From the NCBI GenBank assembly GCA_945897795.1, contig CAMDFT010000005.1, forward strand, positions 1-64,000: a stretch of DNA of 64,000 nt. Reading direction: 5' to 3'. A program made the translations under genes and the position numbers. This document shows, one piece after another, positions 1 through 55,980 of this stretch. Positions within the stretch are counted from its first letter, which is position 1. Each line of letters begins with the position of its first letter. This stretch comes from Limnohabitans sp. Rim8 (GTDB lineage: Bacteria; Pseudomonadota; Gammaproteobacteria; Burkholderiales; Burkholderiaceae_C). A model generated the notes under the pieces. The model was not told the DNA's origin and ran no database searches. It saw only the letters and a program-made list of their open reading frames with translations.

Positions 1-3000
1 ACGACTTTTGAAGGCGCCAGCGCCCTCAGCGACTTTCGCATTGCCCAGCTTTTGCCACGATTGGCCGCCATTTCGCCGCAAATTCAGGGCATTTCGGCCC
101 GTTTCGTTCACCTGGTCGCCACGACCGCGCCTTTGGCAGAGGCCCACCAACAGACACTTTCCGCACTCCTGACCTACGGTGAGCCCTATGCCGGACCAGT
201 GGACGGCCCCGTGATCGTGGTCAGTCCACGCTTGGGCACCGTGTCGCCTTGGGCGTCCAAGGCCACCGACATTGCCCACAACTGTGGTTTTGAGGTGCGC
301 CGCGTGGAGCGCCTGACCGAATACCGCCTGGTGATGAAGTCGGGCTTGCTGGGCACGGCCAAGCTGAACGCTGAACAACTGGGCCAGGTGGCCGCTGTGC
401 TGCACGACCGCATGACCGAATCGGCCATGTCCAGCCGCGATGAGGCGGCGGCTTTGTTCACGGCCCTTGAGCCCGCGCCCATGGACCATGTGGATGTGCT
501 GGCCGGTGGCCGCGCTGCATTGGAAGCCGCCAACAAGACCTGGGGCCTGGCCCTGGCCGAAGACGAAATCGACTACTTGGTCAACGCCTTCACGAGTTTG
601 AAGCGTAACCCCACCGATGTGGAGCTGATGATGTTCGCGCAGGCCAACAGCGAGCACTGCCGCCACAAGATTTTCAACGCCGAGTTCACCATCGACGGCG
701 TGGCCCAGCCCAAGAGCCTGTTCGGCATGATCCGCAACACGCACCAGCTGAGCCCCCAGCACACGGTGGTGGCTTATTCGGACAACGCTTCGGTGATGGA
801 AGGCCACAACATTGAGCGCTTTGTGGCCAGAACCGGTGAGCTAGGCGCGGCTTACCAGTCTGAACAAGCCCTGCACCATGTGCTGATGAATGTGGAAACC
901 CACAACCACCCGACCGCGATTTCGCCGTTCCCCGGCGCATCCACGGGCGCAGGCGGCGAGATCCGCGACGAAGGCGCCACCGGTCGCGGCTCCAAGCCCA
1001 AGGCGGGTTTGTCGGGTTTCACTGTGTCCAAACTCTGGGGCGGCATGTCGGACCAAGCGGGCGGCAAGCCCGATCACATCTCCAGCCCGCTGCAGATCAT
1101 GACCGAAGGCCCTCTGGGTGGCGCGGCCTTCAACAACGAGTTTGGCCGCCCCAACTTGCTGGGCTATTTCCGTGAATACGAACAGACCGTGGACGGCGTG
1201 GTGCGTGGTTACCACAAGCCGATCATGATCGCGGGTGGTCTGGGCCAGATCGACGCTGAGCAAACCCAAAAGATCGAATTCCCGGCGGGCAGCTTGCTGA
1301 TCCAGCTGGGCGGCCCCGGCATGCGCATTGGCATGGGCGGCAGTGCGGCCAGCTCCATGGCCACCGGCACCAACGCCGCCAACCTCGACTTTGACTCGGT
1401 GCAGCGCGGTAACCCCGAGATTGAGCGCCGTGCGCAAGAGGTCATCAACCACTGCTGGGCGCAAGGCAAGGATGGCGGCCCCTTCGGTAGGGGTAACCCC
1501 ATCTTGGCCATCCACGATGTGGGCGCGGGCGGTTTGTCCAATGCTTTTCCTGAATTGACCAACGACGCCGGTCGCGGGGCACGTTTTGATTTGCGGGCCG
1601 TGAAGCTCGAAGAATCGGGCCTGTCGCCCAAAGAAATCTGGTCCAACGAGAGTCAGGAGCGCTATGTGCTGGCGATTGCGCCCGAGTCTTTGGCGCAGTT
1701 CACGGCTTTTTGTGAGCGCGAGCGTTGCCCTTTTGCGGTGATTGGCGTGGCGACCGAAGAGCGTCACTTGGTCGTTGCCCACGAGCCTTTGCCCATTGCA
1801 CCGGCTTTTCATGGACCTTCGGGTTCAGCAGAGACTGGATCGCCACGCTTCGCTCGCGATGACGAATTAACTGGATCGCCACGCTTCGCTCGCGATCACG
1901 AATTAAGTTCCTCGGCAAGTCACCAGCAGACCGTCATTGCGAGCGAAGCGCGGCAATCCAGTTCGGTGCCCGTGGACATGCCCATGAACGTGTTGCTGGG
2001 CAAGCCACCCAAGATGCACCGAGATGTGAAGACCGTCACTCGCCAGTCGCCTGCCATGAACCTCACCGGCGTGAGTTTGCAAAAAGCCGTGATCGACGTG
2101 CTGAGCCACCCGACCGTGGCGTCCAAGCGCTTTTTGATCACCATTGGCGACCGCGCCGTGGGTGGCCTCACGCACCGCGACCAGATGGTCGGCCCCTGGC
2201 AAGTGCCCGTGGCCGATGTGGCGGTGACCCTGGCCGACTACCAAGGCTTTGCCGGTGAAGCCATGAGCATGGGCGAGCGCACGCCGCTAGCTTCGCTCAA
2301 CGCCGCAGCATCGGGCCGCATGGCCGTGGCCGAGGCCATCACCAATTTGTTGGCCGCGCCGATTGAGCTGCCCCGCGTCAAGATGTCTGCCAACTGGATG
2401 GCCGCTTGTGGCGAGCCGGGCGAAGACGCTGCGCTTTATGAAACCGTCAAGGCCGTGGGCATGGAACTGTGCCCTGCGCTCGACATCTCGATCCCCGTGG
2501 GCAAAGACAGCTTGTCGATGCGTACGCAGTGGACCGTACCGAAGGGCGATTCAAGTAACGATGGTGAGACCCGTAAAGTCACCTCACCCGTGAGCCTGAT
2601 CATCACCGCCTTTGCCAGCTTGCCCGATGTGCGCGGCACTTTGACGCCGCAACTCGATGCACAAGAGGGCGATACCAGCCTGCTGCTGATCGACCTGGGC
2701 CAAGGCCGCAACCGCATGGGCGGCAGTGTGCTGGGCCAGGTGCTGGGCCAGTTTGGCGACAGCGTGCCTGATTTGGAAGACCCGCAAACCTTGGTCAGCT
2801 TGGTCAAGGCCGTGAACGCTTTGCGCGCCAAGGGCCAGATCCTGGCCTACCACGACCGCAGCGACGGCGGCTTGCTGGCCGCTGTGGCCGAAATGGCATT
2901 TGCGGGACATGTGGGCGTGGCGCTTAATGTGGACATGCTGGTCACCGAGGGCGACGGCATCACCGACAGCCGCGCCGACCATGGCGACGCCAAGAATTGG

Positions 3001-4185
3001 GCAGGGCAGGTCAGTGCCCGCCGCGAAGAACTCACGCTCAAAGCCCTGTTCAACGAAGAGCTGGGCGTGGTGCTGCAAGTGCGCACCGCCGATCGCAACG
3101 CGGTGCTGCAAACCCTGCGCGAACACGGCTTGTCCAAACACACGCATGTCATTGGCAAGACCCGACCCGTGCAATCGACCATCCAAAAAGGCGTGGGCGA
3201 ACTCAGCATCTGGCGCGACACCAAAGAGGTGTTTGCCGCCAAGCTCGAAGACCTGCACCAAGTTTGGGACAGCGTGAGCTGGAAGATTTGCCAGCAGCGC
3301 GACAACCCGGCTTGCGCCGACGCCGAACACGCCGCCGCTGGCCAGGCCAGCGACCCCGGCATGCATGTGTCGCTGAGCTTTGACCCGGCTGAAAATGTGG
3401 CCGCGCCTTTCTTGAACCTGTCGCGCCCCAAAGTGGCGATCTTGCGCGAGCAGGGCGTCAACTCGCATGTGGAGATGGCCTACGCCTTCCACAAAGCGGG
3501 CTTCGAGTCGCACGACGTGCACATGACCGACCTGCAGTCGGACCGCGCCAACTTGGCCGACTTCCAGGGCCTGGTCGCATGCGGCGGTTTCAGCTACGGC
3601 GACACGCTCGGCGCAGGCATTGGCTGGGCGCGCAGCATCACCTTCAACCCGGCGCTGTCGGATCAGTTCAAAGGCTTCTTTGGCCGCACCGACACCTTCG
3701 GTCTGGGTGTGTGCAACGGCTGCCAGATGTTTGCCGAGCTGGCCGACATCATCCCCGGTGCGCAAGGCTGGCCACGCTTTACCACCAACCAGAGCGAGCG
3801 CTTTGAAGCGCGCTTGTCGATGGTTGAGGTGCTCGAATCGCCCAGCCTGTTCTTGCGAGGCATGGCAGGCAGCCGCTTGCCGATTGCGGTGGCGCACGGC
3901 GAAGGCTTTGCCAACTTCAAGCACCGGGGCAACGCGGCGCTGGCCATTGCGGCCATGCGCTTTGTGGACAACCACGGCCAGGCCACCGAGCAATACCCCT
4001 TCAACCCCAACGGCAGTGCGGGCGGCCTGACAGCTGTGACCACCGCTGACGGGCGTTTCACGGCCATGATGCCGCACCCCGAGCGCGTCTTCCGCAATGT
4101 GCAGATGAGCTGGACGAGTGGTGACATCGCCGCCACCAGCCCTTGGCTGCGCGTGTGGCAAAACGCCCGCAAGTGGGTGGGCTGA
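1..4185 (+). CDS. purL: Phosphoribosylformylglycinamidine synthase, 5'-truncated by the window edge
   Basis: Large single-chain FGAM synthase of purine biosynthesis: converts FGAR, glutamine and ATP to FGAM in the cytoplasm. The reading frame is open from base 1 ([16 protein letters not shown]), so the true start lies upstream of the window and the TTG at 52 is internal. Visible marks: [10 protein letters not shown] and [13 protein letters not shown] in the synthase part, then a C-terminal glutamine amidotransferase with nucleophile Cys in GVCNGCQMF (about residue 1238 counted from base 1) and MMPHPERV. Odd: residues about 612-654 (bases 1834-1961) are encoded by a REP-like repeat inserted in frame, giving a low-complexity GSPRFARD... 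segment just before the conserved [13 protein letters not shown] stretch. The helicase gene starts 12 bp after the stop. Family assignment is certain. Confidence 0.97.
1834..1961. repeat. REP-like repeat (class A) inserted in frame inside purL
   Basis: Two head-to-tail 36-bp copies (1834-1869 and 1870-1905, one mismatch seen) start with ACTGGATCGCCACGCTTCG. A third, inverted copy follows at 1931-1961 (CCGTCATTGCGAGCGAAGCG...). The 36-bp unit is 12 codons, so the duplication keeps the purL frame. The same family occurs inside selO (14793-14881) and, as a divergent copy, between two fad genes (25487-25522). Confidence 0.9.
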
Positions 4186-9658: not shown

Positions 9659-11641
9659 TCAGTGCAAGCCCACCACCGGCCGAGACTTGTAAAACTGCAC
9701 CGGGCTTTCGGGCAAGGCGTTCAACACCGATTTTTTGATCTTGCCCACCACATGCATTTCGCAGGGTTTGCAGTCAAAGCGCAGGGTGAGCTTTTCTTTA
9801 CCGTTGATCAGCTGCATGGGCTCGGCCTTCACCGTGCCTTGCACGCCCGTCACGCCTTTGGCTTGTTTCGGGCACAGACTCAGGCTAAAGCGCACGCAGT
9901 GCTTGGTGATCATCAGGCTGACTTCGCCCAACTCTTCCTGGCTTTCATAGGCCGCATCGATCACCTTCACGCCGTGCTTGGCATAAAAATCGCGGGCCTT
10001 TTGGTTGAACACATTGGCCAGGTAGCTGAGGGTGTCTTCGGGGTATGCGACAGGCGGCTCGACGGGCACGGATCGCGGTAGGCGGTGAAAACCTTTTGCA
10101 CGGGCGGCTTCGAGTGCCTGCACCGCATCGCGGCGCAAGGCGTTGAGCTGTGAGGGCGGCACAAACCAGGGACGGGGCAGGGCCACTTGCACATCCAGCG
10201 GCTCGAACAGGGTGTCCCCCAATTTGCCCAAGGCAGTTTTGAGTTTGTCCTCGGCCTGCTGCGCGTCTTTGGGCGCTTGCCAGGGGATGGCCATTTGCGC
10301 CGTGCCGGTGTGGCCCGCTTCGTCGGTCAGGGTCAGTTGCAGACCACTTTCGCATTCGGCGAGCTGCATCCAAACGCCCATGCGGCGCTCGGCGGATTTT
10401 TTGTCCAGCGTGCGCACCCAGCTCATATCGCGGTTGCGGTTGACCTGCACGCCTTTGCGCAAGTCCTTGAAGCCGTCCATCGGGTCTTTGGGAAACAGTC
10501 GCCAAACGCCCTTGGTTTTTTGGGCTTTTGCGCGGTTGATTTGCAAGCCCACCAGCTCTTTTTGCAGGTCGTAATAACAAAGCCCGTCGCCGTTGTGCAG
10601 TTCGGTGGCCGGGTCGTCGGTGGTGATCTCGACGTGCTCGGGCGTGACCTTGCTGACCCAGCCAATCGACTGGCCGGGGTTTTTGGGCGTGTCAAACGCG
10701 CCGATGTCTTCTTTGCGGCCCTGTACAAAGTAATCGGTGAACTCGCGGTTGAAGTTCTGGTTCGGATCGGGTTCAAAGCTGAAGGTGGTGCGGCCGTGCG
10801 AGGCAGCGGCCAGCGGATTTGAGGAGTTTTGGCGCTCGTTCAGCACCTCGTCAAACAGCTTGCGGTAATGGGCCGTGATGTTTTTTACATAGGCCATGTC
10901 CTTGTAGCGACCTTCGATCTTGAAGCTGCGAATGCCCGCATCCACCAGATCGCGCAGGTTCTCGCTCTGGTTGTTGTCCTTCATGCTCAACACATGCTTG
11001 TCGTGCGCCACGATGCGGCCTTGTGCGTCTTTCACTTCATAAGGCAGTCGGCAGGCTTGCGAGCAGTCGCCCCGGTTGGCGCTGCGGCCTGTGTGGGCGT
11101 GGCTGATAAAGCACTGCCCGCTGTAGGCCACGCACAAAGCGCCGTGCACAAAAAATTCGATCACCGTGCGCTCGGTGTCGATCACATCGCGGATCGCGCT
11201 GATCTGCGGCAGCGTGAGTTCGCGGGCCAACACGATCTGGCTCAAGCCCGCGTCTTGCAAGAACTTGGCTTTTTCGGGGGTGCGGATGTCGGTCTGGGTG
11301 CTGGCATGCAGCTGGATCGGCGGCATGTCGATCTCGAGCAAGCCCATGTCTTGCACGATCAGCGCGTCCACACCCGCGTCGTACAGCTGCCAGGCCAGTT
11401 GGCGTGCGCCTTCCAATTCATCGTCGCGCAAGATGGTGTTCATCGTGACAAAAATGCGGCTGTGAAAGCGGTGGGCGTATTGCACCAGCTTGGCGATGTC
11501 TTGAATGCTGTTGTCCGCCGTGGAGCGCGCCCCAAAAGACGGGCCGCCAATGTAGACCGCATCCGCGCCATGGTTGATGGCTTCGATGCCGATGTCGAAG
11601 GTGCGGGCGGGGGCGAGGAGTTCGAGGTGATGAGGCTGCAT
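9659..11641 (-). CDS. rlhA: 23S rRNA 5-hydroxycytidine C2501 synthase (peptidase U32 family)
   Basis: 660 aa, matching E. coli RlhA (YdcP, 653 aa) in length and almost line by line in recalled motifs: LELLAPAR near the N-terminus, NHGADAVYIGGPSFGAR, LIVQDMGLLE, FVHGALCVAYSGQCFISHA, GDCSQACRLPYEVKD, SFKIEGRYKDM, and C-terminal MITKHCVRFSL and FDCKPCEMHVVGKIK. The cysteines in these motifs are the expected iron-sulfur ligands. Known role: prephenate-dependent hydroxylation of 23S rRNA C2501. The full-length C-terminal domain distinguishes it from the shorter TrhP (YegQ). It lies upstream of the histidine kinase gene on the same strand, with the tandem repeat array behind its start. Confidence 0.93.
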   Translation of the reverse strand: MQPHHLELLAPARTFDIGIEAINHGADAVYIGGPSFGARSTADNSIQDIAKLVQYAHRFHSRIFVTMNTILRDDELEGARQLAWQLYDAGVDALIVQDMGLLEIDMPPIQLHASTQTDIRTPEKAKFLQDAGLSQIVLARELTLPQISAIRDVIDTERTVIEFFVHGALCVAYSGQCFISHAHTGRSANRGDCSQACRLPYEVKDAQGRIVAHDKHVLSMKDNNQSENLRDLVDAGIRSFKIEGRYKDMAYVKNITAHYRKLFDEVLNERQNSSNPLAAASHGRTTFSFEPDPNQNFNREFTDYFVQGRKEDIGAFDTPKNPGQSIGWVSKVTPEHVEITTDDPATELHNGDGLCYYDLQKELVGLQINRAKAQKTKGVWRLFPKDPMDGFKDLRKGVQVNRNRDMSWVRTLDKKSAERRMGVWMQLAECESGLQLTLTDEAGHTGTAQMAIPWQAPKDAQQAEDKLKTALGKLGDTLFEPLDVQVALPRPWFVPPSQLNALRRDAVQALEAARAKGFHRLPRSVPVEPPVAYPEDTLSYLANVFNQKARDFYAKHGVKVIDAAYESQEELGEVSLMITKHCVRFSLSLCPKQAKGVTGVQGTVKAEPMQLINGKEKLTLRFDCKPCEMHVVGKIKKSVLNALPESPVQFYKSRPVVGLH

Positions 11642-45966: not shown

Positions 45967-46967
45967 CAGCCGTTTTGAACGCCCCCTGGATTGCGCGCCA
46001 AGCCGCCGATTTGCTGGCCCAGCGGGGCCATGCTTGGTTGCTGCAAGGCCCGTCGGGTCTGGGTCAATATGAATTGGCACTGGCCATGGCCTCAGCATGG
46101 CTCTGTGAAAAGCCCACTCCCCAAGGCCCTTGCGGCGACTGCCCAAGCTGTCACGCCATTGCTGTGCATACCCACGCCGACCTGGAAGTGCTGATGCCCG
46201 AGACGGTGATGATCGAGCTGGGTTGGCCTTTGTCCGAAAAAGCCCAGGACGAGATCGACAAGAAAACCCGCAAGCCAAGCAAAGAAATCCGGGTGGATGC
46301 GATGCGCGACGCCGTAGAGTTTTCGCAGCGCACCGACGCGCGGGGGCGCGGCAAGGCGGTGCTGGTGTTTCCTGCCGAGCGCATGAACACCATTACGGCG
46401 AACGCCTTGCTCAAAACCCTGGAAGAGCCGCCGGGCGCTGTTCGCTTTGTGCTGGCCACCGAGGCGGCGCACATGCTGCTGCCCACCATCCGCAGCCGCT
46501 GCCTGGCCCACACCATGAAGTGGCCCGAGGCCGACGAAGCTTTGGCTTGGCTCAGCGGGCAGGGCGTGCCCGCCCCCGTGGCGCAAGCACTGCTGCGCAG
46601 TGCGGGCGGCCGCCCCACCGATGTGCTGCGCCAAGCCGAAGCCGGTTTGTCGCCCGACTGGTGGGCCGCTTTGCCCAAGGCCATGCGCGGGGGTGATGCC
46701 CGGCACTTGGCCGATTTGAGCCCCGCGCAAGCGATCGATGCTTTGCAAAAGCTTTGCCACGACTTGGTGTTGCGCCAGTCGGGTGCCGAACCACGCTTTT
46801 TTGACGCCAGCCAACTGCCGCCGAGCAACGCGTCTGTGTCGGTGCTGACCGATTGGTTCAAGCGCCTGATGCAATCTGCGCGCACGGCCGAGCACCCGTT
46901 CAATGCCGGTCTGATGCTCGAAGCCCTGACCGCCGATGCCCAACAAACCCTGATGTCCAAGGGCTGA
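45963..46967 (+). CDS. holB: DNA polymerase III delta' subunit
   Basis: 334-aa clamp-loader subunit. Visible: [18 protein letters not shown], the degenerate P-loop (GPSGLGQYE, lacking GK[ST]) expected in delta', the zinc module [27 protein letters not shown], and the [11 protein letters not shown] motif with the SRC arginine. C-terminal helical domain as usual. ATG overlaps the tmk stop (ATGA). No pilZ gene follows, unlike some relatives of this operon. Confidence 0.93.
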
Positions 46968-47782: not shown

Positions 47783-48508
47783 ATGTATAACTTTATTAAT
47801 TTAAAAAAAGTCATTGTCATTATTGGACTTTTTTGTTTTTCAAATTTTTTGCAAGCCGGTGCTTACGAGGACTTCTTTAAAGCGGTTAAATCTGACAATG
47901 TGCGCACCATTCAAGCCTTGCTGCAACGTGGTTTTGATCCCAACACGGTCAACCCCGAGGGCGTTCCAGCCTTGATGCTGGCGGTGCGAGAACCATCCCT
48001 GAAGGTGGCCGAGTTGCTGGCTGGTTGGCCAAAAACCAAAACCGAGCTGCGAAACGACAAAGACGAAAGTGTGTTGATGCTGGCGGCTCTCAAAGGCCAT
48101 TTCAGCTTGGTCCAAAAACTGGTTGAACATGATTCCGATGTGAACAAACCTGGCTGGACACCTTTGCATTACGCAGCATCGGCTGGCCATGTGCAAATCC
48201 TCGAGTACCTGCTGGAGAACAGTGCCTACATTGATGCGGAGTCACCTAATGGCACCACGCCACTGATGATGGCCGCCATGTACGGCAGCCCGGAAGCCGT
48301 CAAGGTGCTGATTCAGGCAGGTGCTGATTTGACCCTGAAAAATCAACTGGGTCTGAGCGCTTGGGATTTTGCGGTACGCGGCCAGCGCCAAAATTCCAAA
48401 GAACTCATTGAAACTGGATTGGCTCGTCTGGCGGCTCGTCAAAACCAGGCAACACCCAACTCGGGTCAGCAAATTCCTGCCGCGCTCAACCCATCCAAAC
48501 CAAAGTGA
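47783..48508 (+). CDS. Secreted ankyrin-repeat protein
   Basis: 241 aa. N-terminal signal peptide or anchor (KKVIVIIGLFCFSNFLQAG) followed by about five ankyrin repeats: NVRTIQALLQRGFDPNTVNPEG, VPALMLAVREPSLKVAELLAG, ESVLMLAALKGHFSLVQKLV, WTPLHYAASAGHVQILEYLL, TTPLMMAAMYGSPEAVKVLIQAG (each listed up to its core). Likely a periplasmic protein-protein interaction module; related ankyrin proteins sit next to catalases or envelope genes in other bacteria. The first 80 bp is strikingly AT-rich compared with neighbours. It follows tatD by 5 bp and is the last gene before the predicted dif site. Confidence 0.87.
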   Translation: MYNFINLKKVIVIIGLFCFSNFLQAGAYEDFFKAVKSDNVRTIQALLQRGFDPNTVNPEGVPALMLAVREPSLKVAELLAGWPKTKTELRNDKDESVLMLAALKGHFSLVQKLVEHDSDVNKPGWTPLHYAASAGHVQILEYLLENSAYIDAESPNGTTPLMMAAMYGSPEAVKVLIQAGADLTLKNQLGLSAWDFAVRGQRQNSKELIETGLARLAARQNQATPNSGQQIPAALNPSKPK

Positions 48509-48695
48509 TCCCAAGTGATCATGTCGGTTGTATTGGGTTGTCTCACACCATCTTAATTACATACGATGTGTATTATGTAAAGTAACAATGGCACTCCGGT
48601 AGGCCATTAGCCGCTGCGATGACCACGGGTAAATCTCATCGAGACCGAGACCGAGACCCCAAGGTCACGGTGCCAGATCATTGAAGAAGATGGAT
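48509..48695. other. Convergent intergenic region holding the candidate dif site
   Basis: 187 bp between the ankyrin gene and the convergent penicillin-acylase gene. Apart from the dif-like site there is a short direct repeat (TGATC at 48507 and 48517) and a 22-codon open frame (48619-48684, MTTGKSHRDRDRDPK...) that I do not call a gene. Confidence 0.6.
48556..48583. other. Candidate dif site (XerCD recombination site at the replication terminus)
   Basis: 28 bp with an 11-6-11 layout. The right arm TTATGTAAAGT matches 9 of 11 bases of the E. coli XerD arm and the centre TGTGTA matches 5 of 6. The left arm (48556-48566) is weak, 4 of 11, but TTACATA there is inverted to TATGTAA in the right arm. 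Gene orientation switches here and GGGNAGGG octamers on the left point toward it. Comparison is from memory of E. coli dif. Confidence 0.6.
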
Positions 48696-51173
48696 TCAGG
48701 GCGTCAGCGTCAATTGGTGCACTGCTGTGCTTAATAGCTGCAGCGGGCGGTAATGGCCAGCTGCCCAAGCACTGGCCATCGAGCGGCTGCGGGAATCAAA
48801 GACATGGCCTGATTGACCCGTTTGGTAAATAAAGGCCGATTGCTCAGGATCGGCCAAGTCATAAACCGCCCGCATGGAAGCTGCATGGCGGTTGGCAAAG
48901 GGCTCTTTGGGGTCATTGGCCCAGTACTGACCGACGTTCACGGTGAACAAGTCCCCTGCACTTTCGGTGCGCACATCAAACAAGGTGTTGAGCAAAGGCA
49001 CTTTGCCAAAGGGCTTGTGGCTGCTGATGGCCGGGTGCCATGCACCCCAGCGCCAGGTGCGCATGTCCTTGCCCTGTTGGGCGGCAATACGGGTCAAGGC
49101 ACGGTCGAGCGCTGCAGACACTTGCGCTGGGCAGCCAGCAGTGCCACACCAAAAAGTGTCTGAGCGCTTCAAAATGCCTTCCACTGACGCACGGAAATGG
49201 CGTTTGCCGTACAGGGCTTTGAACCGATCGGCACCCAAATGCGGCACCAGCAAACCACGCGTCAATTCATCGGCCCAAACGTTGAAAACCAGCGCAGCGG
49301 CGCTGTCCGCTGTCATTTGGCCATCAAAGGTGCTGAGCATTTGCAGGGCCTGATCGCCCAGCGGGTGTTGCGGCTTGGCCGACAGCACCACCGGCAGCAG
49401 CGACTTGGCACCCAGCGATGTGACATCGTTTTGAATGGCTTGCAGGCTTGCTCGGCTGTGTTGGGGTCTGGCGGCGAGCAGTTGCTCAATGCGGTCAAAG
49501 CGCTCGGGTGTGGTCCAGTCGCCGCCTACAAAATGCGCGTAACCGGGCGGCAGGATGTTCTGGTTGGCGGTGGCGTGCCAGCCTTTCGCTTCGATGGTGT
49601 TGCGGTTCAACGCGGGGTTTTGGTTCGCGGGTAACCAGCCGGTCCAGTCGTATTGGGCCAACCAGCCGGGGGCCGGTGCAACGCCACGGATGTCATTTTG
49701 AGGCGAACGTATGGGCAGTTTGCCCACGGCCCGAAAGGCCACATCGCCCAGCGTGTCGGCCATGACCACGCTTTGCATGGGCGCATGGTTGTCGGTGAAG
49801 GCCTTTTGCAGTTCGGGCACGGTTTGCGCCCAGTTGGTCAACATGCCCGATTCCACGGTTTTGTTGTCCTCGGTCAAAGCTGACCAGCGCAGACTGACGA
49901 CATAGCGCTGGCCGTTGATGAGCTTATCGTATTGAGGTTGAACATCGCTGATGACAGGACCGTGGCGGGTGCTGCGCACTTGGAGGGTCACATCGCCCTG
50001 CCCTTTGACGCGAATGGTTTCGGTGCGTTCATCAAACGCAGCCCATCCGGTGGGCGTGCGGTACTTCCCGGGTTGGGCTGCGTCCAGTTGCTCTAGGTAC
50101 AAGTCCTGAACGTCCGGGCCGGTGTTGGTGAAACCCCAGGCCACACCTTGGGTGCGGCCCAGCACCACAAAAGGCAATCCGGGCAAGGTGGCCCCGATCA
50201 CATCCAGCGCGGGGTGTTTGTGCCCGCCGGGTAACTCGCCCGCAGGCGCTTTGAGGTGCGCGAAATACCAGATGGCAGGCGAGCTCAATGCCAGATGCGG
50301 GTCGTTGGCCAGCAAGGGTTTGCCGCTGACGGTGCGGCTGCCGGGCACCACCCAGTTGTTGCTGCCCTTGCCTTCCAAAATACCGACATCGCGCACCCAG
50401 TCGGCTGACCATTGGGCCAAGGCGCTGGGCGCAGGCGCGATGGCCGACACGGCTTTGTCCTTGGGGGCGTACACACCCAACTCGGCATACAAGGCCGGCA
50501 GATCCACTGCGGTGGCGGGTTTTTCGCCCGGATAAGGCGGCATGAGTTGCCACAGTTGATCGTTATTCAAGACCTGCGAGGCCGACAAACGGGCGAATTC
50601 CTGCCCCCAATTGCCCCCCAGATCAAGCGCCATCATCAGCGCCCAGCCCAGGCTGTCTTCGGGCGACCAGGCCTGGCCTTTGGGGCCGCCTGCCACGGTG
50701 CCAAGCAGTTTGAATTCGGGTGATGGCCGCACAGCGCCACTGGCCCAAGCGTTCTGAATGCCCTCGCTGTAGGCCTGCAGCGCCGCTTGGGTTGCGGGCG
50801 ATAAACCCATCAACTGTTTTTGCGCCATGCCGATGATGCCCAGCGTGCGCATGAGTTTGTCGGTGTCCAGCGTGGCCGCACCCAAAATTTCAGACAACTC
50901 GCCGCGCATCAGGCGGCGGTTGAATTCAAGTTGCCAGCCGCGTTCTTGCGCGTGCACAAACCCCAGCGCACGCCAAGTGTCCAAGGCGGTGGCCCCTTCA
51001 ATGTGCGTCACATCCGCAGCGTCGCGGGTGATGGTGACCTGGCCACTCAAGCCCGCCAACTTGAGCTGTCCGTCCAGTTGCGGCATGCTGCGCAGCAAGT
51101 GCACGGCCAATACGCCACCCGCCACCAACACAGCGGCCAGCAGCAATAAAACAAGTCGTCCGATCCATTTCAT
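48696..51173 (-). CDS. Penicillin acylase family protein (Ntn hydrolase)
   Basis: 825-aa precursor of the penicillin amidase/acyl-homoserine-lactone acylase family (S45). An N-terminal signal anchor (IGRLVLLLLAAVLVAGGVLAV) sends it to the periplasm. The autoproteolytic site and N-terminal nucleophile Ser are in EGKGSNNWVVPG, which would split it into an alpha chain of about 270 residues and a beta chain of about 550. Substrate (beta-lactam, acyl-homoserine lactone or other amide) cannot be read. ATG 51173 has GGAGAC in front and is preferred to 51200. Confidence 0.93.
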   Translation of the reverse strand: MKWIGRLVLLLLAAVLVAGGVLAVHLLRSMPQLDGQLKLAGLSGQVTITRDAADVTHIEGATALDTWRALGFVHAQERGWQLEFNRRLMRGELSEILGAATLDTDKLMRTLGIIGMAQKQLMGLSPATQAALQAYSEGIQNAWASGAVRPSPEFKLLGTVAGGPKGQAWSPEDSLGWALMMALDLGGNWGQEFARLSASQVLNNDQLWQLMPPYPGEKPATAVDLPALYAELGVYAPKDKAVSAIAPAPSALAQWSADWVRDVGILEGKGSNNWVVPGSRTVSGKPLLANDPHLALSSPAIWYFAHLKAPAGELPGGHKHPALDVIGATLPGLPFVVLGRTQGVAWGFTNTGPDVQDLYLEQLDAAQPGKYRTPTGWAAFDERTETIRVKGQGDVTLQVRSTRHGPVISDVQPQYDKLINGQRYVVSLRWSALTEDNKTVESGMLTNWAQTVPELQKAFTDNHAPMQSVVMADTLGDVAFRAVGKLPIRSPQNDIRGVAPAPGWLAQYDWTGWLPANQNPALNRNTIEAKGWHATANQNILPPGYAHFVGGDWTTPERFDRIEQLLAARPQHSRASLQAIQNDVTSLGAKSLLPVVLSAKPQHPLGDQALQMLSTFDGQMTADSAAALVFNVWADELTRGLLVPHLGADRFKALYGKRHFRASVEGILKRSDTFWCGTAGCPAQVSAALDRALTRIAAQQGKDMRTWRWGAWHPAISSHKPFGKVPLLNTLFDVRTESAGDLFTVNVGQYWANDPKEPFANRHAASMRAVYDLADPEQSAFIYQTGQSGHVFDSRSRSMASAWAAGHYRPLQLLSTAVHQLTLTP

Positions 51174-51236
51174 GGGTGTCTCCGTGTGGGCGTTGCGCAC
51201 GCCTCTGGTGGCGCCTGTTCAGGCTTTTATGCGGTA

Positions 51237-52145
51237 TTAAATGTGGCCCCAAACCATCAGCGCGTCACGCCCTTCCGTGACAAGGTCCACCTTGGCCCCT
51301 ACAGGCAGCATCACCTTGGTCGCCACATGGCCAAAAGGCAAGCCGGTGAGCACTGGGGCCTTGATCTGGCCGCGCAACCAATCGACCACAGTGGCCAGCT
51401 TGAAGCCTTTGTCGTGCGTGGGGACGAGCTTGTAGTTGCTGAACTGGCCCATCAACACCGCCTTTTGCTGGGCCAAAACGCCTGCACGCAGCAGCTGCGT
51501 GAGCATGCGCTCGATGCGGTAAGGGTGCTCGCCCACGTCTTCAAGGAAGAGCACGCCAGCTTTGACTTGCGGAAAGTAAGGCGTGCCCAGCAGCGAAGTC
51601 AGCACCGTGAGGTTGCCGCCCCACAGCGGCGCATCTTTCACCAGCACACGGCGCTCTGCCTCGGCTTTGGGCAGTTGCCAGCCCGTGCCCTCCCCTTGCT
51701 CCAGCAGCAAGTCGTCAAAGCAAGCTTGCATGATGTCGTCGGGTTCTTGTTCGGGGCCAAAGTCTTCCAGGTCCGGGCCCTGCCAGCTGATGCGGCCAGT
51801 CTTGGCATACACGGCTTGGTTGAAAGCAGTGAAATCGCTCAGGCCCACAAAATGCGTGCCACCGTCAATGGCTTTGGCAATGGCTTTGTAGGGCAAGCTG
51901 TGCAGGATACGCGTGAGGCCGTAACCGCCGCGAGAGATCAAAGCCACATCGGCACCGCTGGCTGCGGCGCGGGTGATGGCCGCGATGCGTGTGGCGTCGT
52001 CGCCCGCAAAGCGCATGTGGCTGGCCAACGCCGCTTCATCCAACTCGACCTCATGCCCCTGGGCTTGCAAACGCTTCACGGCACGGCGAAACGCGGCTTT
52101 GTCACGGACCGCGCTTGAAGGGGAAAAAATGTAAATGTGGGCCAT
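51237..52145 (-). CDS. Muramoyltetrapeptide LD-carboxypeptidase (S66 family)
   Basis: 302 aa, LdcA-like enzyme that trims the terminal D-Ala from murein tetrapeptides during cell wall recycling. Family motifs: IFSPSSAVRDK near the N-terminus, LISRGGYGLTRIL with nucleophile Ser region (GGYG), VGLSDFTAFNQAVY, FLEDVGEHPYRIERML (catalytic Glu) and GLPFGHVATKVMLPVG (catalytic His). No signal peptide, consistent with cytoplasmic recycling. Confidence 0.92.
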   Translation of the reverse strand: MAHIYIFSPSSAVRDKAAFRRAVKRLQAQGHEVELDEAALASHMRFAGDDATRIAAITRAAASGADVALISRGGYGLTRILHSLPYKAIAKAIDGGTHFVGLSDFTAFNQAVYAKTGRISWQGPDLEDFGPEQEPDDIMQACFDDLLLEQGEGTGWQLPKAEAERRVLVKDAPLWGGNLTVLTSLLGTPYFPQVKAGVLFLEDVGEHPYRIERMLTQLLRAGVLAQQKAVLMGQFSNYKLVPTHDKGFKLATVVDWLRGQIKAPVLTGLPFGHVATKVMLPVGAKVDLVTEGRDALMVWGHI

Positions 52146-52160: not shown

Positions 52161-54151
<1,991 letters not shown>

Positions 54152-54342: not shown

Positions 54343-55980
54343 TTCCCACTCGATCGTCGCCGGTGGTTTTGAGCTCACGTCGTATGTGACTCGGTTGATA
54401 CCGCGCACCTCGTTGATGATCCGCCCAGACACTTTCTTGAGCAGCGCATAGGGCAACTCAGCCCAATCCGCCGTCATGAAGTCGCTGGTTTGCACAGCGC
54501 GCAGTGCCACCACATAGTCGTAGGTGCGGCCGTCGCCCATCACGCCTACGCTTTTCACGGGCAGGAACACGGTGAAGGCTTGGCTGGTCAGGTCGTACCA
54601 AGTCTTGCCAGTTTCGTCGGTGAAGTTGCGCAGTTCCTCTATGAAGATCGCGTCCGCACGGCGCAGCAGGTCGGCGTATTCTTTTTTGACTTCACCCAAG
54701 ATGCGCACGCCCAAGCCTGGACCTGGGAAGGGGTGGCGGTAGACCATCTCGCGGGGCAAGCCCAGCGCCACGCCCAATTCGCGCACTTCGTCTTTGAACA
54801 ATTCGCGAAGGGGCTCTAGCAGTTTCAGGCCCAGTTGCTCGGGCAAACCGCCCACGTTGTGGTGGCTCTTGATGGTGACGGCTTTCTTGCTCTTGGCACC
54901 GCCACTTTCAATCACGTCGGGGTAAATCGTGCCTTGGGCCAGGAAGGTCGCACCTTTGACGGCTGGTCGGCCGTCATTCCCATCTTTGCCGCCGTCGGCA
55001 GCTTTCAACTTGGCCGCTTGTTCCTTGAACACATCGACAAACAAACCGCCGATGATCTTGCGCTTGGCTTCGGGCTCGCTCACACCTGCCAGCTTGCCGA
55101 GGAACAAATCGCTGGCATCGACGCGGATGACCTTCGCGTGCAACTTGCCGACGAACATCTCCATGACCATGTCGCCTTCATTCAGGCGCAACAGACCGTG
55201 GTCCACAAACACGCAGGTCAGCTTGTCGCCGATGGCGCGGTGGATCAAGGCGGCAGCCACCGACGAATCGACGCCACCCGACAAACCGAGAATGACCTCT
55301 TCGTCACCCACTTGCTCGCGGATCTTGGCCACAGCTTCTTCGATGTAGTCGCCCATGATCCAGTCAGGTCGGGCCTGGCAGATGTCGAGCACGAAGCGGT
55401 TGAGCAGCGCCTGGCCTTGCACGGTGTGCGTGACTTCGGGGTGGAACTGCACAGCGTAAAAGCGGCGCGCCTCGTCGGCCATGCCTGCAATCGGGCAAGC
55501 AGGTGTCGAAGCCATGACCTTGAAGCCGGCAGGCATGGCCGTGACCTTGTCGCCATGGCTCATCCACACCTTGAGCATGCCGTGGCCTTCGGGCGTGGCG
55601 AAGTCTTCAATGCCCTTCAGCAGTTCAGTGTGGCCATGGGCACGGACTTCGGCGTAGCCAAATTCGCGCGTGGTGCCCGCCTCCACCTTGCCGCCCAGCT
55701 GCTGGGCCATGGTCTGCATGCCGTAGCAAATGCCCAAGACTGGCACGCCCAACTCGTACACAGCATCGGGCGCTTTGTCGTCCACCTCGTACACGCTGGC
55801 GTGGCTGCCAGACAGAATCACACCCTTCAGGTTGCCGTCTTTGGCGTATTCACGCACCCAGTCGCTGCTGACATCACAGGGATGGACTTCGCAAAACACA
55901 TGCGCTTCGCGCACACGGCGGGCAATCAGCTGGGTGACTTGCGAGCCGAAGTCGAGGATGAGGATCTTGGAGTGCTGCAT
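54340..55980 (-). CDS. guaA: GMP synthase (glutamine-hydrolysing)
   Basis: 546 aa; converts XMP to GMP. Class I amidotransferase domain with nucleophile Cys in [12 protein letters not shown] and His/Glu in [13 protein letters not shown]-pyrophosphatase P-loop [14 protein letters not shown]-terminal dimerisation domain ending [17 protein letters not shown], the standard GuaA terminus. Downstream of guaB with a hairpin between. A HigA fragment reads into its stop codon from the other strand, but guaA itself is full length. Confidence 0.97.

Follow-up and report, generated by a model that had tools for sequence, protein, structure and literature searches.

The window, by which we mean the whole 64-kb stretch of DNA analysed here, carries a 187-bp intergenic gap at 48509-48695, flanked on the left by an ankyrin-repeat gene (47783-48508, + strand) and on the right by a penicillin-amidase-family gene (48696-51200, - strand); TatD and LD-carboxypeptidase genes are also found in these surroundings. 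Within the gap, at 48556-48583 on the + strand, lies the 28-bp sequence ATTACATACGATGTGTATTATGTAAAGT. No open reading frame of 80 or more amino acids runs across it, and it is low in G+C (7 of 28 bases, vs 0.53 and 0.57 in the overlying 2-kb bins). Scans of the window for tRNAs and Rfam families returned no matches. At 52161-53567 a single open frame fuses a tadA-like deaminase domain with an alpha/beta hydrolase domain.

Read against known dif sites, the 28-mer divides into an XerC arm, ATTACATACGA (48556-48566, +), a central region, TGTGTA (48567-48572, +), and an XerD arm, TTATGTAAAGT (48573-48583, +), the same 11 + 6 + 11 layout as in E. coli dif. The inner part of the XerC arm has the lineage-specific spelling TACGA, with C and G at 48564-48565. 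By eye, 5 of the 11 arm positions mirror each other; in this lineage the inner XerC arm breaks the mirror symmetry.

In its available text, PMC2731167 lists as features of chromosomal dif sites a non-coding location near the GC-skew terminus, a palindromic form, low G+C, a highly conserved XerD arm, and both xerC and xerD in the genome. The genome studied here, which is 87% complete, encodes an XerD (361 bits, cut-off 329.6) and an XerC whose best family is TIGR02224, at 323 bits and so under the curated cut-off of 335.15. It also encodes an FtsK with the gamma domain (100 bits for that domain), and KOPS-like octamers converge on the 28-mer, as described below. A core search allowing up to three mismatches found one copy of the site in this genome.

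Comparison with known dif sites

The initial annotation proposed a dif site from a match to 14 of the 17 bases of the centre and XerD arm of E. coli dif, and that count is correct. Over all 28 bases the E. coli sequence matches 18, against 17 for the runner-up in the window; the XerC arm contributes 4 of 11, with TACGA in place of CATAA in its inner part. Scanning the genome for the 17-mer gave one match vs two for the reversed control, by itself no evidence for dif. One point against the dif reading is that E. coli dif alone would not single out this site. The near-chance comparison with E. coli also speaks for the possibility that the 28-mer is an AT-rich stretch that arose by chance next to a strand switch unrelated to it, a possibility made negligible by the conservation described in the next section. 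With 18/28 against 17/28 at the next best place, we dropped the match to E. coli dif as a criterion and replaced it with the dif of Rhodoferax ferrireducens together with conservation.

The Rhodoferax ferrireducens sequence, as given in the table of Carnoy and Roten 2009 in the available part of that paper (PMC2731167), matches the site at 23 of 28 positions; the next best place in the window reaches 16. The two share TACGA in the inner XerC arm and all but one of the 11 XerD arm bases. The window site differs from it in three outer XerC arm bases, in having G for A at position 15, and in having A for T at position 24.

Conservation and gene neighbourhood

The 20-base core of the genus consensus was found, with up to three mismatches, in 78 of 90 same-genus genomes, while the reversed-pattern control was found in 0 of 90; among genomes with completeness of 90% or more and contamination of 5% or less the yield was 52 of 56. 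Two of the 78 (G013 and G030) have a second core match, with three mismatches. Eight of the 12 genomes that gave no core match are 58-82% complete. A loose search, noisy in that it gave 24 matches with 10 in the reversed control, recovered a respelled dif in three of the 12 (G053, G043 and G102); G104, which is 97% complete, gave no convincing dif in either the core or the loose search. A respelled form, TACAATCAATA, also occurs in two of the 78 core-matching genomes (G045 and G047). Genomes G043, G102, G045 and G047 (loci L209, L210, L205 and L203) have in common the respelling TACAA TCAATA, in which both the inner XerC arm and the centre are changed.

A longer pattern of 24 bases matched 38 of 100 relatives, all of the same genus, and none of 40 others. 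In the 30 loci fetched from these 38 matches the frequency of the commonest base averages 0.92 within the 28 bp, 0.41 over the 60 bp to the left and 0.40 over the 60 bp to the right, the inside value following in part from the pattern itself. The XerD arm is invariant in these loci at positions 18-23 and 25-28, of which those up to 26 fall inside the search pattern. Positions 27-28, which lie outside it, are GT in 30 of 30 loci, and positions 1-2, likewise outside, vary. Conservation of 28 bp throughout the genus amid unconserved flanks, extending to two positions that the pattern did not impose, argues against a chance stretch.

The genes to the left of the site are largely the same in those relatives whose surroundings we compared. 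In 10 of 11, a distance of 63-231 bp (measured by alignment ends) separates the dif core from the end of the row mltG-tmk-holB-tatD-ank, so that the ankyrin-repeat gene is the left neighbour there too; in the eleventh, G034, the row was not found within 20 kb of dif. The genes to the right, beginning with the penicillin-amidase-family gene, match those of the window in 5 of the 11. Among the other arrangements, G054 has a ParA-like gene 75 bp to the right of dif, G013 has a XamI-type endonuclease and a DNA methylase to the right, and in G034 genes for an integrase and for an ATPase of metal-transport type lie 1.2-5.5 kb to the left. The surroundings of dif thus differ between related species, and dif may be an insertion hot spot.

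A possible objection to the dif reading is that the site belongs to an integrated mobile element that uses Xer recombinases for attachment, and is not the chromosome's own dif. The likely island genes near dif in some relatives (ParA-like, restriction-modification, integrase) lend this a little weight, since elements may use the spot. We nevertheless consider it very unlikely: the neighbours in the window are TatD, ankyrin-repeat, penicillin-amidase and LD-carboxypeptidase genes, the 87%-complete genome holds a single match at up to three mismatches, and the same genes stand to the left in 10 of 11 relatives.

Octamer orientation, skew and the terminus region

The initial annotation listed 15 octamers of the form GGGNAGGG, the E. 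coli KOPS consensus, and each of its coordinates and strands is confirmed in the window. Twelve lie to the left of dif, all on the + strand and pointing at it: the first is GGGCAGGG at 2999-3006, the next ten start at 10175, 21250, 27926, 36193, 36875, 39761, 41164, 44041, 44086 (spelled GGGGAGGG) and 45417, and the closest is at 46557-46564. To the right, the closest octamer (49996-50003) and a GGGGAGGG (51688-51695) are both on the - strand and point left; the sole wrong-way octamer in the window is GGGAAGGG at 54725-54732 (+). The octamer and the rule of pointing to dif are shared with the E. coli KOPS; what sets the window apart is that one spelling, GGGCAGGG, accounts for 12 of the 15.

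The number of octamers in the window is not unusual (15 vs a mean of 11.6 expected, with 21 of 100 shuffles reaching 15), and we therefore use their orientation alone as evidence there: 12 of 12 on + to the left, 2 of 3 on - to the right (Fisher p = 0.029). Two more octamers, both on -, lie beyond the window on the same contig, which is 77,302 bp long, so that over the whole contig 12 of 12 left octamers point right and 4 of 5 right octamers point left (p = 0.0021). Among 267 8-mers with at least 11 copies to the left of dif, counting both strands, GGGCAGGG is the only one confined to a single strand. Genome-wide, GGGNAGGG has 501 copies vs 199 for the reversed pattern. Strand counts (+:-), which cover contigs C1-C7 of these 501 copies, show a lean on the other contigs as well: 20:4 on C1, 11:3 on C2, 0:10 on C3, 2:10 on C4, 10:2 on C6 and 3:7 on C7.

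Gene orientation also changes at dif. The initial annotation counted 31 of 41 genes on the + strand to the left and 13 of 14 on the - strand to the right; with our own ORF picker the direction of the switch holds, and these exact figures are plausible and were not reproduced. We obtained 26 of 40 on + to the left and, to the right, 11 of 13 on - in the window and 19 of 23 to the contig end. This is a rough check made with a crude picker, which returned some shadow ORFs and a wrong-strand ORF over holB and tatD.

GC skew is weak locally, at +0.012 to the left and -0.009 to the right in the window, or -0.022 to the right as far as the contig end. The initial annotation named a skew switch at about 48.57 kb as support; the cumulative skew on the contig reaches its maximum at 50345, 1.8 kb from dif. 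The chromosome is in 164 contigs, and we therefore made the chromosome-wide skew test on a relative, G006, whose assembly is a single contig of 2,948,795 bp.

Before turning to G006, we note the behaviour of 10 relatives picked for long contigs. In the 20 kb to the left of dif their octamers number 67 forward and 9 reverse, and in the 20 kb to the right 7 forward and 29 reverse; the pooled p of 1e-12 overstates the case, since the genomes are related and the sites not independent. Skew drops from left to right across dif in 8 of the 10 and runs in the wrong direction in 2. In these same stretches (L156-L175) octamer density on both strands together is about twice as high to the left as to the right (76 vs 36).

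In G006, skew and octamers were read in twenty 20-kb samples. Skew is positive in all 10 samples from 0.45 to 1.82 Mb; from 1.95 Mb it is negative in 6 of 7, the other being 0.000, and below 0.45 Mb the three samples vary in sign (0.034, -0.006 and -0.033). All 17 octamers in the six samples between 0.90 and 1.67 Mb are forward, and all 13 in the seven samples from 1.95 Mb are reverse; elsewhere the counts (forward/reverse) are 0/0 at 1.80 Mb, 0/1 in three samples at 0.45-0.77 Mb, and 3/3 before that. Closer to the site, skew is positive in each of the five 20-kb bins that precede dif, where octamers number 8 forward and 1 reverse, and negative in each of the five that follow, where they number 1 forward and 4 reverse. 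The dif of G006, at 1,829,356, falls between the nearest forward octamer (1,827,953) and the nearest reverse one (1,834,672). Going round from dnaA (260,055-261,395), dif is reached after 53% of the chromosome. The site is thus close to the terminus as skew defines it: 1.8 kb from the maximum on the contig here, and at the switch itself on the chromosome of G006.

We conclude that 48556-48583 is almost certainly the chromosomal dif site for XerC/XerD, because its 28 bp are conserved across the genus amid unconserved flanks, the gene row on its left is constant, the octamers converge on it, and both skew and octamers flip at it in G006. Weighing the other way are the genus genomes that gave no core match, the XerC score under its cut-off, and the local skew, which is weak, peaks off the site and runs in the wrong direction in 2 of the 10 relatives. 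The initial annotation is upheld as to identity. The dif site here is an ordinary one. From established knowledge of XerCD and FtsK we infer binding, translocation and recombination at it. Where crossing-over had left sister chromosomes linked as a dimer, FtsK acting at the division septum would load on the GGGNAGGG octamers, oriented towards dif on either side of it, and pump DNA until dif lay at the septum; it would then switch on XerD, and XerD with XerC would recombine the two dif copies so that the chromosomes separate.

The initial annotation also called the site a replication terminus, which is better understood as the terminus region. The site could be dif and the terminus of segregation while forks meet elsewhere, which is compatible with the dif reading and which we rate as somewhat unlikely. 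In its favour, no Tus gene was found in the 87%-complete genome, and the available part of PMC6199493 reports that in Pseudomonas aeruginosa segregation, but not replication, ends at dif. The position of dif in G006, just over halfway round from dnaA and at the skew switch, speaks against it.

Spelling of the XerC arm and its recombinase

The initial annotation described the left arm of the site as weak. The poor match to E. coli is real; it does not reflect decay, since YACGA is the usual spelling in this lineage. Scanning the genome_contigs collection with ACGATGTRTATTATGTWAA returned at least 119 stretches, and 114 of the matches listed fit YACGA; the other five of the 119 fall outside that expression, presumably with another base at position 7. 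The listed stretches come mostly from Comamonadaceae genera, Burkholderiales or unspecific betaproteobacteria. Odd titles among them (Candidatus Fonsibacter, Candidatus Saccharibacteria, Mediterraneibacter and Sulfuritalea) may be contaminated assemblies.

Wider in the order, 85 of 100 genomes had a dif match, and we surveyed the inner XerC arm in 40 of these, mostly close matches. It reads YATAA in 33, YACGA in 3 (G138 and G182, both of the window's family, and G147), YACAA in 2 (G132 and G148), and GATAA and CTAAA in 1 each. Judged from these sequences, what looked like weakness in the left arm is the lineage's own spelling, with YACGA replacing YATAA, and the table of 2009 already shows it. 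A literature search for dif in Comamonadaceae, or for a betaproteobacterial XerC/XerD dif consensus, gave no match.

The spelling of the arm may vary together with a residue of XerC. Of XerC sequences sought in 57 genomes, 54 were kept (G167 is truncated, and G062 and G189 are XerD-like by eye), and one N-terminal residue is Leu or Met in 21 of the 22 genomes whose dif has C at position 9, against 0 of the 32 others. This residue is position 32 of the open frame of G087 and Leu36 of the XerC of the genome studied here, and aligns with Ala26 of E. coli XerD; it is presumably the equivalent of Met44 of Cre. The exception is G148, with the arm CACAA and Asn. At the equivalent XerD residue, read in 22 of 24 proteins (19 of which belong to genomes whose dif has that C), we found Ala in 17, Ser in 4, Cys in 1 and Leu or Met in 0 of 22. 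The two left out were the second G013 match and G145, where the motif search fell on another stretch.

Other XerC sites were considered and rejected. Residue 35 (Leu39 in the XerC here) is also Leu in the XerD of the same genome; moreover, four genomes of the genus whose arm reads TACAA keep Leu there, and G193 combines ACGA with Glu. A first alignment had 4 columns that separated 7 YACGA XerC sequences from 21 others, and substituting other rows for that of G147 gave up to 3, so that the figure of 4 carries little weight. The XerC of G147 (L303) has a long insertion in mid-protein.

The tree requires at least 3 changes at dif position 9 and at least 2 of the XerC residue. Shared descent weighs on these counts: 19 of the XerC rows form one clade, the placement of G147 is weakly fixed, and the independent pairs number 2 on supported branches and 3 on all branches, with which a sign test cannot reach significance. 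Given so few independent origins, the co-variation is suggestive only. We tentatively propose, at slightly less than even confidence, that in Comamonadaceae and near kin YATAA gave way to YACGA (T to C at dif position 9, A to G at position 10) together with a change of the XerC residue from the Ala, Asn, Ser or Gly of most relatives to Leu or Met, with XerD and its inner arm unchanged, and that this residue may be part of an XerC-dif code.

Structural work bears on this proposal from both sides. In the available text of PMC5241119, XerH contacts the bases of difH mainly via its N-terminal domain, a four-helix bundle with one further helix, and base changes in the inner arm of difH abolish or greatly reduce XerH cleavage; that of PMC6486577 places residues of Cre helix B among the candidates for reading inner positions 5-7. 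Against it, the XerC/D model in PMC5241119 puts a candidate for arm specificity, XerC Lys222, in the outer arm, and both papers, in the same portions, give the outer arm and indirect effects a share in specificity. XerC-dif coevolution of this kind was not found in the titles and abstract openings of the matches listed in our literature search.

In a draft genome of 164 contigs, dif fixes the terminus region and the boundary between the replichores; searches for dif in this lineage are better made with YACGA than with the E. coli spelling. The co-variation with XerC is a by-product, suggestive only, that merits a wider comparison. If it is true, the inner arms for XerC and XerD, nearly identical in most relatives, became distinguishable in this lineage, and the lineage would offer a natural experiment on which XerC residue reads its arm.
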